DNA of 64,000 nucleotides from a bacterium GBS-1 (GTDB lineage: Bacteria > Synergistota > GBS-1): the NCBI GenBank assembly GCA_001443005.1, contig LEKQ01000001.1, forward strand, positions 454,792 through 518,791. The letters run 5' to 3'. A program made the position numbers and the translations under genes. The first letter of the stretch is position 1; each line of letters starts with the position of its first letter. Positions 54,020-58,533 of this stretch are shown here, one piece after another. A model generated the notes under the pieces. It did not search any database. It was given only the letters and a program-made list of their open reading frames with translations, and was not told where the DNA came from.

Positions 54020-55252
54020 TTAGCTTGCAACAAGCCTCTTGGCTTTCCCTGCGGTTCTCTCTAAGCTCCCTGGTGGTAAAATCGTTAAATCCACGCTTAT
54101 ACCCAATCTATCTTTCAAAGCTTTAGAAACTCTTGACGTAAGCTCATTTATATCCCCCTTGAAACCATTGGCAAGCTCACACCTAACCTCAAGCCTCTTT
54201 AGGTATTTCCTTTCGCCTACCACGAGCTGATAGTTCAAGCTAAGCTCACCGAAGCTTCCCAAAACAGATTCTATCTGCTTTGGGAAAACATTAACGCCGC
54301 GAATTATAAGCATATCATCGCTTCTACCCTTTATCCTGTCTATCCTATAACCATGAACCCCACATGGGCATTCACCATTCACAAGCCTAGTTATGTCACG
54401 TGTCCTGTATCTTATCATCGGAGTACCTTCTCTGTTGAGCGTGGTTAAGACAAGCTCCCCTTCCTTCCCAAAGGGTAGGGGCTTTAGAGTTTCAGGGTCC
54501 ACCACCTCAACTATGAAATACTCCTCATTGAGGTGAAGCCCGTTTTTATAGGGACACTCCATGGCTACACCAGGACCCCATATCTCACTCAGCCCATATA
54601 TGTCAAGCGCCATTATGCCTAAACCCTTTTCTATCTGAGCCCTCATCTCCTCGCTCCATGGCTCAGCACCAAATATACCTAAGCGAAGATTAAGCTCATC
54701 TGGAGATATACCTTTCTCAGCCAGGACCTCTGCAAGATAAAGAGCATAGCTTGGCGTGCAAGCCAAAACAGTAGTACCAAGGTCCCTCATGAGCTCTACT
54801 TGCCTTTCCGTATTACCACCAGAAATCGGAATAACACAGCAGCCAAGCCTTTCCGCCCCATAGTGCAATCCCAATCCACCGGTAAAAAGCCCATATCCAT
54901 AGGCAACTTGAACTATATCATCCTCATTTACCCCAGCTAATCTTAAACACCAGGCTACAAGCTCAGCCCACCTATCTATGTCTCCCTTTGTATAACTAAC
55001 CACTGTAGGCCTTCCTGTAGTCCCTGAGGAACAGTGAACTCTTACGATCTTCCTTAGATCAGAAGCTGTAGCTCCCCAGGGATATCCACTTCTTAAGTCA
55101 TCCTTAGTCATAAAAGGAAGATATTGAATATCATTAAAACTCCTTATGTCCTCTGGACTTATACCAGCCTCTTTCATCCTCTCCCTATACCAAGGATACC
55201 TCTCATAAGCTCTCCTCACACTTTCTCTCAAGGCTAGTAACCTATCTTCCAT
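54020..55252 (-). CDS. paaK: Phenylacetate-CoA ligase family protein
   Basis: AMP-forming acyl-CoA synthetase of about 410 residues that activates phenylacetate or a related arylacetate to its CoA thioester. The N terminus has ERYPWYRERMKEAGISPEDI; the ATP loop is VHCSSGTTGRPTVVSYTKGD, followed by YGYGLFTGGLGLHYGAE, YGLSEIWGPGVAMEC, the AMP-binding YRTRDIT and KGRSDDMLIIRGVNVFPKQIE. All match PaaK, including anaerobic ones beside indolepyruvate oxidoreductases. The ATG at 55252 follows AAGGAGGGTGTG. The gene is preceded by its own terminator and an aromatic-codon leader peptide (see those entries). Confidence 0.92.
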   Translation of the reverse strand: MEDRLLALRESVRRAYERYPWYRERMKEAGISPEDIRSFNDIQYLPFMTKDDLRSGYPWGATASDLRKIVRVHCSSGTTGRPTVVSYTKGDIDRWAELVAWCLRLAGVNEDDIVQVAYGYGLFTGGLGLHYGAERLGCCVIPISGGNTERQVELMRDLGTTVLACTPSYALYLAEVLAEKGISPDELNLRLGIFGAEPWSEEMRAQIEKGLGIMALDIYGLSEIWGPGVAMECPYKNGLHLNEEYFIVEVVDPETLKPLPFGKEGELVLTTLNREGTPMIRYRTRDITRLVNGECPCGVHGYRIDRIKGRSDDMLIIRGVNVFPKQIESVLGSFGELSLNYQLVVGERKYLKRLEVRCELANGFKGDINELTSRVSKALKDRLGISVDLTILPPGSLERTAGKAKRLVAS

Positions 55253-55283
55253 AATTAAGACACACCCTCCTTCTTGATAAAAT

Positions 55284-55330
55284 TTAAGGCCGGAGGCCCC
55301 ACCCTTCTTAGATGGAGCCTCCGGCCTTAA
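55284..55330 (-). terminator. Intrinsic terminator in the paaK leader
   Basis: On the minus strand TTAAGGCCGGAGGC (55330-55317) pairs perfectly with GCCTCCGGCCTTAA (55297-55284), 14 base pairs around a 19-base loop, followed by ATTTTATC. It stands about 32 bases before the paaK start, between the leader ORF and the gene. Confidence 0.85.
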
Positions 55331-55343
55331 GACCAAACCCTGA

Positions 55344-55374
55344 GCTTATCCCCTACGGGGATTCAAGCCGGAGA
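55344..55374 (-). promoter_or_regulatory. Antiterminator strand and pause-type hairpin in the paaK leader
   Basis: Minus strand CTCCGGCTT (55373-55365) can pair with AAGGCCGGAG of the terminator 5' arm: nine pairs with one bulged G. The same segment lies at the end of the leader ORF and overlaps its stop. A separate strong hairpin (GCTT...ATCCCC-GTA-GGGGAT...AAGC, 55344-55368) competes for it. So the position of a translating ribosome should decide whether the terminator forms. Confidence 0.65.
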
Positions 55375-55416
55375 CCCTTTCCAACTAAAGTAAAACCTAA
55401 AGACACAAAGGTTCAT
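55363..55416 (-). CDS. Aromatic-codon leader peptide of paaK
   Basis: A 17-residue ORF (MNLCVFRFYFSWKGSPA) that starts at the ATG at 55416, five bases after AAGG, and ends in TGA at 55365-55363. An in-frame ATG at 55428 would add MKVS but lies almost at the transcription start. Five of seven consecutive residues (F-R-F-Y-F-S-W) are aromatic, coded TTT, TTT, TAC, TTT and TGG. It has no ORF-track length and no match to a protein family; its job is probably to stall ribosomes when charged Phe/Tyr/Trp tRNAs are scarce. Confidence 0.7.
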   Translation of the reverse strand: MNLCVFRFYFSWKGSPA

Positions 55417-55439
55417 TGAAACCTTCATCTTGATTTTAA

Positions 55440-55468
55440 AGTATACCATTTACCTTTGAGTTAGTCAA
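55440..55468 (-). promoter_or_regulatory. Promoter of the paaK leader
   Basis: Minus strand TTGACT (55468-55463), 17 bases, TATACT (55445-55440). Transcription should start near 55433, just before the leader peptide. It points away from the TRAP promoter, 25 bases between the two -35 boxes. Confidence 0.8.
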
Positions 55469-55493: not shown

Positions 55494-55522
55494 TTGACAG
55501 CTTCAAGATCCTGTGGTATAAG
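55494..55522 (+). promoter_or_regulatory. Promoter of the TRAP transporter leader
   Basis: TTGACA (55494-55499), 17 bases, TATAAG (55517-55522): eleven of twelve consensus positions. The start is expected near 55529, at or within the leader ribosome-binding site, so the 5' end is uncertain by a few bases. Confidence 0.82.
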
Positions 55523-55541: not shown

Positions 55542-55655
55542 TTGTTGATTAGCGTAACCAGCCGTAGGAACGTTTCTTATTACGCTTATTATTACTACTA
55601 TTATCTTTATCCCGCCAGGTTGCGGGAAAGGCTGGTTGCGCTTCCTCTGAGGTAG
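55542..55655 (+). CDS. Tyrosine-rich leader peptide of the TRAP operon
   Basis: A 37-codon ORF starting at TTG (55542), seven bases after AAAGGAGG, and ending in TAG at 55653-55655. The protein begins MLISVTSRRNVS and then reads YYAYYYYYYLY: nine tyrosines in eleven codons (55578-55610), mixing TAT and TAC, which argues for selection on the amino acid rather than a DNA repeat. The rest is RLRERLVALPLR. An ATG at 55537 is out of frame and reaches a stop in three codons. It is not a known protein and should act as an attenuation leader. Confidence 0.78.
   Translation: MLISVTSRRNVSYYAYYYYYYLYPARLRERLVALPLR
55552..55641 (+). promoter_or_regulatory. Alternative pairing segments of the TRAP attenuator
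   Basis: GCGTAACCAGCC (55552-55563) pairs with GGCTGGTTGCGC (55630-55641) over 12 bases with one G-U. CCCGC/GCGGG (55611-55626) is a small hairpin between them. GGTTGCGG (55618-55625) can pair with CCGCCACC of the terminator 5' arm (55685-55692), 7 of 8 bases, as an antiterminator. These are hand-drawn pairings; no folding energies were computed. Confidence 0.55.
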
Positions 55656-55678: not shown

Positions 55679-55714
55679 AAAAAGCCGCCACCTTTCCCAG
55701 GGTGGCGGCTTTTT
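55679..55714 (+). terminator. Intrinsic terminator in the TRAP leader
   Basis: AAAAAGCCGCCACC (55679-55692) and GGTGGCGGCTTTTT (55701-55714) pair perfectly over 14 bases around an 8-base loop, followed by A and TTTTT. It lies 28 bases before the dctP ATG, so the operon needs readthrough. Confidence 0.92.
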
Positions 55715-55742: not shown

Positions 55743-56765
55743 ATGAAAAAGCTACTACTAATAGCTGGTGTCTTGATACTCTTAATGGTGAAGGCAACAG
55801 GAATAGGGTTTGCCGCAGAAACCAAGATAAAGCTATCCTATGCGAACTTCTTCCCACCATCTCATGTTCAATCTACCCTCGCCGAAGGCTGGATAAAGGA
55901 GATAGAGAAGCGGACAAACGGTAAGGTAGAGATCACCTACTTCCCTGGAGGCTCCTTGCTCCAAGGACAAAACATATTCGAAGGCATATTAAACGGAATA
56001 GCAGATATAGGTATGTCCTGCTTCGCTTATACAAGCGGAAGGTTTCCAATAATGGAGGCGGTTGACCTTCCGCTGGGCTACCCTGATGGAGTAGTAGCAA
56101 CTAGGGTTATAAATAAGTACTACAACGCGATGAAACCCAAGGAATTATCAGAGGTTAAGGTCCTTTACCTTCACGCTCATGGACCAGGGATACTCCACTC
56201 AAAGATAAAGATTAACAGGTTAGAAGATCTAAAAGGGTTAAAGATAAGGACAACAGGTTTTAGTGCGAAGGTCGCAAAGGCACTGGGCGGAGTTCCAGTA
56301 GCTATGAGCCAAGGAATGGCCTATGAAGCCTTACAAAAGGGGATAGTTGAAGCAACCTTTACCCCAATGGAAACGCTCAAGGGCTGGAAGCAAGCGGAGG
56401 TAATAAAATACTCCATTATGTGTACAAGGATAGGATATACAACAGGTATGTACGTCATTATGAACGCAAGGAAGTGGGATAGCATGCCAGAAGATATCAA
56501 AAAGGTATTTGAAGAAGTTAGCGCAGAATGGATAGAAAAGCATGGTAAAGCCTGGGATGAAAGCGACTTGGAAGGAAAAGAGTTCACCTTAAGCTTGGGA
56601 AATGAGATCATCACCCTTCCAGATGAGGAGCACGAAAGATGGAGAAGAGCCGTAGAACCCGTGATAGATGAATATGTAAGCGAGATAGAGAAAAAGGGAG
56701 TCCCTGGAAAGGAAGCCATAGAAACCCTAAAGAGGCTTATGAAGGAGGAGAGCTCAAAGAAATGA
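55743..56765 (+). CDS. dctP: TRAP transporter substrate-binding protein (DctP type)
   Basis: Exported solute receptor of 340 residues with a signal peptide (MKKLLLIAGVLILLMVKATGIGFAAE). The mature part shows the DctP fold: KLSYANFFPPSHVQSTLAEGWIKEIEKRTNGKVEITYFPGG, DIGMSCFAYTSGRFPIMEA, the carboxylate-binding arginine region LKIRTTGFSAKVAKALGG and NARKWDSMPEDIKKVFEEVS. The family takes C4-dicarboxylates, keto acids, aromatic or other organic acids; the substrate is not set by sequence alone. Its leader carries the tyrosine attenuator. Overlaps dctQ by four bases. Confidence 0.93.
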   Translation: MKKLLLIAGVLILLMVKATGIGFAAETKIKLSYANFFPPSHVQSTLAEGWIKEIEKRTNGKVEITYFPGGSLLQGQNIFEGILNGIADIGMSCFAYTSGRFPIMEAVDLPLGYPDGVVATRVINKYYNAMKPKELSEVKVLYLHAHGPGILHSKIKINRLEDLKGLKIRTTGFSAKVAKALGGVPVAMSQGMAYEALQKGIVEATFTPMETLKGWKQAEVIKYSIMCTRIGYTTGMYVIMNARKWDSMPEDIKKVFEEVSAEWIEKHGKAWDESDLEGKEFTLSLGNEIITLPDEEHERWRRAVEPVIDEYVSEIEKKGVPGKEAIETLKRLMKEESSKK

Positions 56766-57253
56766 GAAGCTTAGGGAAGGGGCTCAACCTTATTTCTGCC
56801 TTAATCTTAGGAGCTATAACATCCCTAATATGTACCGATGTAATACTAAGGCTCTTCAGATATCCAATCCCTGGAAGCTATGATATCACTGAACTCTTGA
56901 CATCGCTCATGCTTTCCTTCGCCATATTAAGGAGCTTTCAAGATGAAGCCCAGATAAAAATAGACCTAATAGATAGGGTTCTAAAGGAAAATGAACTAAA
57001 TATGGTCAACCTATTCTCGCGTTTGGTAACCGCCTTCTTTTTAGCTATACTATCTATCAGCATGATATACTCAGGCCTTAACTCCTACATCTCCGGTGAA
57101 GTATCGATGACGCTTCGCATTCCTCTATATATATGCTATATAGCCATTGGCTTAAATGCAGGCATAGCTTCCCTAAACGAAACCCTACCGATATTAAGAA
57201 TACCTCAAGAAGCAATGACAAAACTACCAAAACTCGGGAGGGAGAGAATTTGA
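56762..57253 (+). CDS. dctQ: TRAP transporter small membrane subunit (DctQ type)
   Basis: A 163-residue protein with four hydrophobic segments and the usual DctQ flow: GKGLNLISALILGAITSLICTDVILRLFRYPIPGSYDITELLTSLMLSFAI, then a cytoplasmic part, and RLVTAFFLAILSISMIYSGLNSY with YICYIAIGLNAGIASL. It bridges the binding protein and DctM. The start overlaps dctP and the stop overlaps the dctM start (TTGA). Confidence 0.92.
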   Translation: MRSLGKGLNLISALILGAITSLICTDVILRLFRYPIPGSYDITELLTSLMLSFAILRSFQDEAQIKIDLIDRVLKENELNMVNLFSRLVTAFFLAILSISMIYSGLNSYISGEVSMTLRIPLYICYIAIGLNAGIASLNETLPILRIPQEAMTKLPKLGRERI

Positions 57254-58533
57254 CCTCTTTAACCTTTGGGGCCATAGCCATAGGATCTTTGCTCTTTCTA
57301 TTCCTTATGAAAGTCCCAGTAGGAATAGCTATGGGGCTCATAGGATTTTTAGGATTCGGAATTCTCGTTTCTTTTCCTGCCGCAATGAAGCTATTAGCGG
57401 TAGATTTCCTCTCCTCTTTTAACTCTTACACTCTCGCAGTGATACCTCTATTTGTACTGATGGGGCAGCTAGCCCATAACTCTGGAATGAGCAAAAGGCT
57501 ATACGAAGCCTCTTACAAACTATTGGGACATCTTCCAGGCGGATTAGCTATCGCCACTATATGGGCAAGCGCAGGATTTGCAGCGATATGCGGTTCAACT
57601 AACGCCTCCACAGCTACAATGGCTATGGTAGCTCTTCCTGAGATGAGAAGGTACGGTTATTCAGAGTCCTTAGCTACTGGAAGCGTAGCTGCAGGAGGAA
57701 GTTTAGGAATAATGATCCCTCCAAGCGTGATATTCGTCATATACGGAATACTCACCCAACAATCCATAGGCAAACTATTCATGGCCGGCGTTCTGCCCGG
57801 TTTGCTTCTCTCAGCCCTTTTCTCATTAGCTATATACATATGGACGAGACTAGATCCTAACATCGCTCCAAGAAGCAGTAAAAGCACCTGGAAAGAAAAG
57901 ATCCTCTCTCTTTCAAGCGCCCTCGAGGTAATAATGATCTTCCTCTTAGTCGTAGGTGGATTATTATATGGTATCTTCACACCCGTTGAGGCAGGAGCTG
58001 TAGGAACTGGTTTAATAGGAATAATCTCTCTACTAAGAGGGAATCTGTCTTGGGACGGAATTAAGCGCTCTCTTCAAGAAAGCGTCCGTATATCTTCCAT
58101 GATAATATTTGTAGTTGCAGGTGCAACAGTATTTGGGCACTTTTTAGCTATAACAAAGCTCCCTCAATCGCTCCAGGCCTGGCTTCTTGAGCTTGAAAGC
58201 TATCCGCATTTAGCCATGCTCTTCATAATAGCAGTTTATATAATTGGAGGCTGCTTTGTGGATGCTTTAGCCCTGATACTTTTAACTGTACCGATATTTT
58301 ACCCTGCGATCATCAAACTTGGTTTCGATCCAATCTGGTTTGGTGTTATGGTCGTTCTCCTAACCCAAATCGGCGTCATCACACCTCCCGTAGGAATCAA
58401 CGCTTACGTGATAAAGGGGATATTCCCAGAGATCCCCATGGAAACTATATTCAAGGGAATTACCCCCTTCTTTATATCCCTACTTTTAGGTACAATGCTA
58501 CTTATTATATTCCCTCAAATAACCCTTATGTGA
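57250..58533 (+). CDS. dctM: TRAP transporter large membrane subunit (DctM type)
   Basis: Sodium- or proton-driven transport subunit of 427 residues with about 12 hydrophobic segments. FLMKVPVGIAMGLIGFLGF, VIPLFVLMGQLAHNSGMSKRLYEASYKLLGHLPGGLAIATIWASAGFAAICGSTNASTATM, MIPPSVIFVIYGILTQQSIGKLFMAG and TQIGVITPPVGINAYV are DctM hallmarks. I chose TTG at 57250, after GGGAGGGAGAG and overlapping dctQ; the longer frame from 57133 only duplicates part of dctQ. Confidence 0.95.
   Translation: MTSLTFGAIAIGSLLFLFLMKVPVGIAMGLIGFLGFGILVSFPAAMKLLAVDFLSSFNSYTLAVIPLFVLMGQLAHNSGMSKRLYEASYKLLGHLPGGLAIATIWASAGFAAICGSTNASTATMAMVALPEMRRYGYSESLATGSVAAGGSLGIMIPPSVIFVIYGILTQQSIGKLFMAGVLPGLLLSALFSLAIYIWTRLDPNIAPRSSKSTWKEKILSLSSALEVIMIFLLVVGGLLYGIFTPVEAGAVGTGLIGIISLLRGNLSWDGIKRSLQESVRISSMIIFVVAGATVFGHFLAITKLPQSLQAWLLELESYPHLAMLFIIAVYIIGGCFVDALALILLTVPIFYPAIIKLGFDPIWFGVMVVLLTQIGVITPPVGINAYVIKGIFPEIPMETIFKGITPFFISLLLGTMLLIIFPQITLM

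Follow-up and report, generated by a model that had tools for sequence, protein, structure and literature searches.

Why should a gene for an arylacetate-CoA ligase be preceded by what looks like the regulatory leader of an amino-acid operon? The question is raised by a short region upstream of a paaK gene in a stretch of 64,000 nucleotides (the window), for which an earlier note had proposed an attenuator governed by an aromatic leader peptide. The window belongs to a genome of 1.81 Mb in 15 contigs, which by its gene content is probably one of the phylum Synergistota, and the features discussed here are collected in Table 1. The ligase contains the Pfam domains AMP-binding and AMP-binding_C_2, and the solved chains nearest to it are the phenylacetate-CoA ligases 4r1l, 2y27, and 2y4o. 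Its TIGR02155 score was 504.5 bits, under the equivalog cut-off of 646.3, and judging from its sequence we file it as PaaK-like, a close homologue below the PaaK equivalog cut-off.

Table 1. Features of the paaK upstream region, its ligase and the divergent TRAP operon (window coordinates)
Feature	Position	Strand	Remarks
Sigma-70 type promoter TTGACT-17-TATACT	55440..55468	minus	10/12 consensus matches; TG precedes -10
Leader ORF, 21 codons + TGA: MKVSMNLCVFRFYFSWKGSPA	55363..55428	minus	stop TGA 55365-55363; G002 orthologue equal in length
Putative regulatory codons Phe10, Phe12, Tyr13, Phe14 (TTT AGG TTT TAC TTT)	55387..55401	minus	kept in G002
Predicted antiterminator 5' strand GGTCTCCGGCTT, within final leader codons	55365..55376	minus	12-bp pairing in snapshot folds
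Predicted antiterminator 3' strand (bases of terminator 5' arm)	55316..55327	minus	duplex -27.9 kcal/mol
Terminator hairpin, then ATTTTATC	55284..55330	minus	-40.5 kcal/mol
PaaK-type arylacetate-CoA ligase, Phe-leader type	54020..55252	minus	TIGR02155, PF14535, PF00501
Switching positions 126, 129, 163, 164, 218, 302 (window ligase numbering)			Phe- vs Tyr-leader members
Promoter TTGACA-17-TATAAG, divergent TRAP operon	55494..55522	plus	read from sequence
Tyr-run leader, TTG start after AAAGGAGG: ...VSYYAYYYYYYLYPARLRERLVALPLR	55542..55655	plus	Tyr frame is the only one with a start codon
Strong terminator before TRAP operon	55679..55714	plus
dctP-dctQ-dctM TRAP transporter	55743..58533	plus	proposed importer of arylacetate or other tyrosine precursor

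The promoter claimed in the earlier note was found on the minus strand as described. About a dozen bases separate it from the ATG at 55428 on the paaK strand, and because this codon lies approximately 5 nt past the expected transcription start, the mRNA of the leader would be nearly leaderless. The 17-codon ORF reported previously does exist, starting at a second in-frame ATG (55416), but the conserved leader has 21 codons: the orthologue in genome G002, whose ligase is 88% identical to that of the window, has a 21-codon leader (MRQHYVVYLFVFYFRCLGSPV) at an equal distance from its promoter. The pattern F-x-F-Y-F...G-S-P is common to both peptides, and their alignment showed that Phe10, Phe12, Tyr13, Phe14, and Gly-Ser-Pro are kept, whereas Trp16 is replaced by Cys in G002. 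The orthologue in G001 lies at a contig end with 35 bases upstream and was left out of the leader comparison. The leader had been described as rich in Phe, Tyr, and Trp codons; the four Phe and Tyr codons are conserved and well placed, but Trp16 is neither. Tryptophan was thus rejected as a regulatory amino acid of this leader, since its codon is not conserved and the geometry is wrong, a ribosome on Trp16 already covering the antiterminator.

The terminator comprises 20 pairs overall and has the perfect 14-bp outer stem noted before, with a gap of 31 bases, not 32, to the paaK ATG (55252). Its U-tract (ATTTTATC) is short and mediocre, and most of the relatives listed have stronger ones. Structure prediction for the minus strand (55433-55253), which the earlier note had suggested as a check, gave a folding z-score of -5.5, and none of 200 shuffles folded as well. 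The end of the leader ORF pairs with the terminator 5' arm, as had been proposed, over 12 bp instead of 9, and none of 200 shuffled segments matched the energy of this duplex. The sequence GGGTCTCCGG occurs at four sites in the genome, of which two are in paaK leaders. The two others were rejected as attenuators, being inside other coding frames with no attenuator there.

The alternative pairings were analyzed in snapshot folds of the RNA from the leading edge of the ribosome, assumed to be 15 bases beyond the first base of the A-site codon, to a 3' end at which the terminator 3' arm has yet to be transcribed. The 12-bp antiterminator folded (-35.6 kcal/mol for the segment) when the ribosome was placed on Phe10, Phe12, or Tyr13; on Phe14 it was reduced to a 9-bp version, and in folds with the ribosome on Trp16 or at the stop codon it was absent. 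These computations agree with the earlier idea that a stalled ribosome frees the antiterminator and a finishing one hides it. When the terminator 3' arm was included, the terminator won in both full-length cases folded, and control must therefore be kinetic, as it is in other leader-peptide attenuators.

We infer that termination and antitermination would follow the amino acid supply in this manner. The leader's own last codons (GGG TCT CCG GCT TGA) would provide one antiterminator strand. With too little charged Phe-tRNA or Tyr-tRNA, the ribosome would stall on Phe10-Phe14 and leave this downstream strand free to pair with the terminator 5' arm, and polymerase would run on into paaK; under ample supply, a ribosome at the stop codon would cover the strand and the 20-bp terminator would form. 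The locus contains, conserved in relatives, the clustered codons in a promoter-proximal short ORF that are expected of a leader-peptide attenuator, together with an intrinsic terminator and its U-tract (short in the window) before the structural gene, and folding predicts mutually exclusive antiterminator and terminator structures with the correct ribosome geometry.

One might take the hairpin for a simple terminator, or for the end of some other transcript, with an aromatic ORF in front of it by chance, as aromatic codons are AT-rich and short ORFs common. We scanned 185 genomes of the same phylum, 107 of which had a ligase at E<=1e-80, and made a Trp-type search in addition; a GTDB scan added 80 ligase loci. 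The collection contained 216 non-redundant ligase loci, 123 from the same phylum, and represents part of the listed matches, many loci of genus g8 having been left out. Leader ORFs were counted in those same-phylum loci, 77 in number, for which 200 or more upstream bases were available together with a terminator of -15 kcal/mol or lower. Within a stretch of six codons, a minimum of 3, 4, 5, and 6 aromatic ones was reached at 44, 31, 12, and 2 loci, respectively, as against 12.4, 1.5, 0.13, and 0 expected from dinucleotide shuffles. Chance would thus deliver some 12 of the 77 loci at the three-codon level, but at the four-codon level, reached by 31 loci, no more than 5 were seen in any of 100 shuffled sets. 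The loss of the aromatic codons or of the leader-terminator complementarity in close relatives had been named in the earlier note as the observation that would speak against an attenuator; both are kept in relatives despite sequence divergence. Given also the 21-codon leader shared with G002 and the near-constant location of the antiterminator strand, an origin by chance, already contradicted by this conservation, is barely credible.

The spread of the element was further assessed with a motif (aromatic codons, followed by G-P, G-S-P, or D-P, followed by a terminator) that was written after the leaders had been inspected. It scored in 68 of 121 same-phylum loci, compared with 3.5 expected; the 68 include L185, L193, and L194, which scored on an ORF not accepted as a leader, and the motif misses L002 and L192 despite their Tyr- and Trp-rich leaders. 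In a natural-sequence control, 8 of 371 non-ligase ORFs scored, and 5 of these were judged to overlap a ligase that follows a leader of its own. Among loci from other phyla, 2 of 91 contained the motif, neither of them convincing. The element of the window is not a one-off: its family is found widely in the phylum, in Phe, Tyr, and Trp versions. One large group has a leader with two Phe codons only and the near-constant peptide RFSFTGAGPLHGICA.

Several loci merit separate mention. At many same-phylum loci (e.g., L218, L220, and L222), RFSFTGAGPLHGICA is conserved beyond the apparent need of the antiterminator strand. In L223 (563-674) and L217 (263-422), an FSFTGTDP leader and a terminator lie in front of other genes, with the ligase approximately 2 kb further on; the gene behind this leader in L223 is presumably a DedA-like ORF. 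Phe-rich short ORFs (FPFRFFFFSGFSF, FFHFSLFFSGFSF, and FFRFCCFQFFGGFFF) and terminators precede paaK in the Syntrophobacterales-type loci L044, L047, and L049; their hairpin layout differs from that of the same-phylum leaders, and they may be an independent invention. A single Clostridia record (L061) has an ORF MTRRTAWAFRFYFCSHAKV... and then a strong terminator upstream of paaK.

Across loci, the antiterminator strand corresponds to the G-P codons of the leader (GGGTCCC, GGGACCCC, or GGGTCTCCGG). Its distance to the stop codon is near-constant in most Phe and Tyr leaders, and in Trp leaders the strand is located approximately 40 bases past the stop. Taken singly, the antiterminator pairings gave weak shuffle statistics (P<=0.05 at 16 of the 44 called loci) because the segments are GC-rich, and a cross-partner test was therefore used instead. 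Six called loci were left out, three in which another ORF is the leader (L177, L087, and L232) and three judged to be chance (L245, L109, and L196); the other 38 yielded 23 non-redundant loci. Leader ends paired with their own terminator arms at a mean of -20.05 kcal/mol, compared with -17.47 kcal/mol for swapped partners, and none of 20,000 permutations paired as well as the own partners; the own arm ranked first in 4 of the 23 loci only, since the GGG-CCC motif is generic. The same G-P codons bear on whether the leader peptide might arrest the ribosome by sensing a ligand, in the manner of TnaC. Such a mode would account for conservation at the peptide level in one large locus group, with peptides such as RFSFTGAGPLHGICA, but the conserved G-P residues are encoded by the very bases of the antiterminator strand, and paralogues exchange F, Y, and W for one another, as codon reading predicts. 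We consider ligand-induced arrest very improbable.

Genomes with several ligases have different leaders on different ligases. The leaders in G019 are SFFFFFTGAGP and GFYFYYFTGVGPP, those in G020 are VFTMVFSFTNAGP, SFYYYYVYGSAGSP, and GRWWWYRNRR, and in the genome of the window a 78% identical paralogue (L002, C8:64288-68514) has the leader VYSFVYYYYKE and a third copy (42%) is without a leader. Trp leaders were observed in one genus only (G020, G022, G033, and G072). Ligases with Phe and Tyr leaders form separate clades in the main clade A, in the window family f1, and in the f2 tandem pair; for this comparison, the leader labels of L002, L087, and L091 were set by hand. The IQ-TREE tree, calculated without 11 near-duplicate rows and nine suspect alignment columns, needed three leader-type changes, and a single origin of the Tyr group was rejected (AU p 0.00015). 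The two leader types thus originated on three separately duplicated ligase pairs.

Two observations concern the paralogues of the window ligase. The Tyr-codon run of L002 is read as Tyr in the ATG frame but as Leu in the frame leading on to the conserved G-S-P (GSPV), and a frame change relative to its orthologue L117 seems to have occurred. The third ligase of this family (L197, L195, and L202; 42-45%) is a sister of the Trp-leader clade without a Trp leader, and its residues Pro118, Phe129, and Gly165 resemble those of that clade; we regard this type as a candidate indoleacetate-CoA ligase.

The analysis of the enzymes revealed that leader type is tracked by residues. At 6 of 410 positions, the Phe and Tyr members of each of the three pairs had no residue in common, as compared to a chance expectation of 0.8 to 1.6; at least six such positions were obtained in 1 of 20,000 column shuffles, and in 35 of 20,000 with variability matched in eight bins. 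From Phe to Tyr type, position 126 changes from Gly to Ala, Ser, and Ser across the three pairs, position 129 from an aliphatic residue to Phe, Tyr, and Phe, position 164 from Ala to Thr in each, and position 218 from Ile/Val to Ser, Cys, and Ser. Six loci from the leader clades or their vicinity had been excluded from the Phe and Tyr sets before the columns were computed. Three of them (L176, L206, and L178; leader ..RYYF) have Ala126, Thr164, and Ser218, in agreement with the Tyr type, and three with Phe only (L177, L208, and L091) have Gly126, Ala164, and Ile/Val218, in agreement with the Phe type. Some Tyr members of clade A have mixed leaders (e.g., L126, with four Phe and three Tyr), and in the mixed clade-A leaders listed, at least one of the final three aromatic codons is Tyr.

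Position 129 aligns with the PaaK1 Ala/PaaK2 Ile position, which we take to line the aryl pocket. Tyr164 of 2-hydroxyisobutyryl-CoA ligase, an acyl-pocket residue according to the available part of the source (PMC8388817), aligns, with a deduced numbering offset, 3 residues from position 126 and 6 from position 129. These two positions may thus be near the ligand pocket. Burkholderia PaaK1 and PaaK2 (2y27, 2y4n, and 2y4o) are homologous to the window ligase over its whole length and by alignment have the Gly126 and Ile218 of the Phe-leader ligases, but differ in serving aerobic phenylacetate degradation, as described in the accessible sections of PMC4498308 and PMC9493321.

As to the purpose of such control, the AMP-forming ligase would spend ATP on phenylacetyl-CoA, and an indolepyruvate-type ferredoxin oxidoreductase (IOR) working in the reductive direction, followed by a transaminase, would finish Phe; the paralogous ligases with Tyr leaders would open the same route from 4-hydroxyphenylacetate, and those with Trp leaders from indoleacetate. 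We consider it likely that ribosome-mediated attenuation switches on these arylacetate-CoA ligases in response to a shortage of the cognate aromatic amino acid, so that their products would enter a reductive carboxylation to the arylpyruvate. Such a salvage route had not been proposed in the earlier note.

The same attenuator could also act on a ligase that serves aromatic amino-acid fermentation or arylacetate disposal, the leader merely tuning it to the state of translation. The genome appears to resemble that of an amino-acid fermenter, and many same-phylum ligases are located behind iorAB. However, it is these copies linked to iorAB that have no leader call: iorAB was found upstream on the same strand at none of 68 leader loci (sequence being short for some) and at 33 of 55 loci without a leader call, and the motif scored at none of these 33 iorAB-linked ligases. 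Ligases in ior operons are therefore without a leader, and stand-alone ones mostly have one. Moreover, the geometry corresponds to induction by scarcity, which is the wrong sign for catabolism and therefore fits synthesis, and AMP-forming ligases typically favour CoA-ester synthesis, as stated in the available part of PMC13285125. A role in fermentation or arylacetate disposal is thus unlikely.

Salvage by reductive carboxylation depends on an IOR, which is present in the genome of the window; IOR alpha had a match in all 61 relatives searched, 53 of them over the cut-off. No convincing aromatic leader was found before iorA in the 9 genomes and 10 loci examined, and ORFs with 3-4 aromatic codons in six upstream of some iorA genes were taken as chance. 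Chorismate synthase was detected in 32 of 61 genomes in all. The genome of the window is among these, and salvage is accordingly not its sole possible route to aromatic amino acids. No match was obtained in at least five leader-bearing genomes (G009, G023, G034, G047, and G049), where arylacetate could be the only aromatic route.

A divergent operon for a TRAP transporter has a leader of its own, which is probably the "first" attenuator of the earlier note. Its Tyr frame reads SYYAYYYYYYLYP and contains nine Tyr. The Tyr runs are kept wherever the family has this transporter, in four of four genomes (that of the window and those of L263, L264, and L265), though the gene neighbours differ, and GGGAAAGG/CCTTTCCC complementarity is common to the four leader regions. 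The transporter is therefore predicted to import a tyrosine precursor; judged from the leader, its substrate would be 4-hydroxyphenylacetate, another tyrosine precursor, or tyrosine itself. An Ile/Leu (ilv-like) frame for this leader was rejected, as it is without a start codon and Tyr is kept in four genomes. Searches with Rfam gave a weak match of Phe_leader (RF01859) on the TRAP strand, at 22.1 bits against a gathering threshold of 55. No amino-acid leader family reached its gathering threshold in the whole window, and on the paaK strand (55253-55433) none (e.g., RF01859 Phe_leader, RF00506 Thr_leader, and RF00512 Leu_leader) was matched at E 10.

The pheA, trp, his, leu, and thr leaders of Enterobacteria are leader-peptide transcription attenuators of amino-acid operons. 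The paaK element is like them in its run of codons for the regulated amino acid, its competing antiterminator and terminator, and the terminator directly before the first gene, but unlike them in that its target is an arylacetate-CoA ligase and its antiterminator strand is within the last codons of the leader. The available part of a comparative genomics study of His attenuators in Firmicutes (PMC9413887) describes leaders with one codon run and alternative hairpins, which is the same kind of evidence as ours, but for His operons and in other phyla; there, Synergistetes are mentioned for HisR and not for attenuators. In Bacteroides, an AMP-forming ligase beside IOR is an arylacetate-CoA ligase, for which enzyme data published in 2026 suggested a biosynthetic role (PMC13285125, in part). 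The Bacteroides ligase with its IOR, and methanogen IOR, involve the same two activities in a proposed biosynthetic direction; the available portion of that article does not describe RNA regulation, and the leader-bearing ligases studied here are, in contrast, apart from ior.

No report on the attenuation of a phenylacetate- or arylacetate-CoA ligase was found in the result lists of searches of open-access full text. The RNA device is of a known kind, leader-peptide attenuation, whereas its target and the Phe/Tyr/Trp code appear, by these searches, to be unreported. The interest of the finding rests on this target family, the phylum-wide spread, the three-way code, and the convergent enzyme residues that go with it. 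The direction in which IOR and PaaK-type ligases of anaerobes work, to amino acids or from them, is usually a matter of guesswork; a leader that senses starvation and has a fixed sign speaks for synthesis. The leader codons predict the arylacetate of each ligase, by which substrate, direction, and regulation become testable, and they offer an annotation handle for a large family now mostly labelled "phenylacetate-CoA ligase". We see about an even chance that, in a wider sense, a phylum of anaerobes remakes Phe, Tyr, and Trp from environmental arylacetates via dedicated, separately attenuated CoA ligases, joined in the family of the window by a Tyr-attenuated TRAP importer, and that the leader codons would label the substrate of each ligase as phenylacetate, 4-hydroxyphenylacetate, or indoleacetate.
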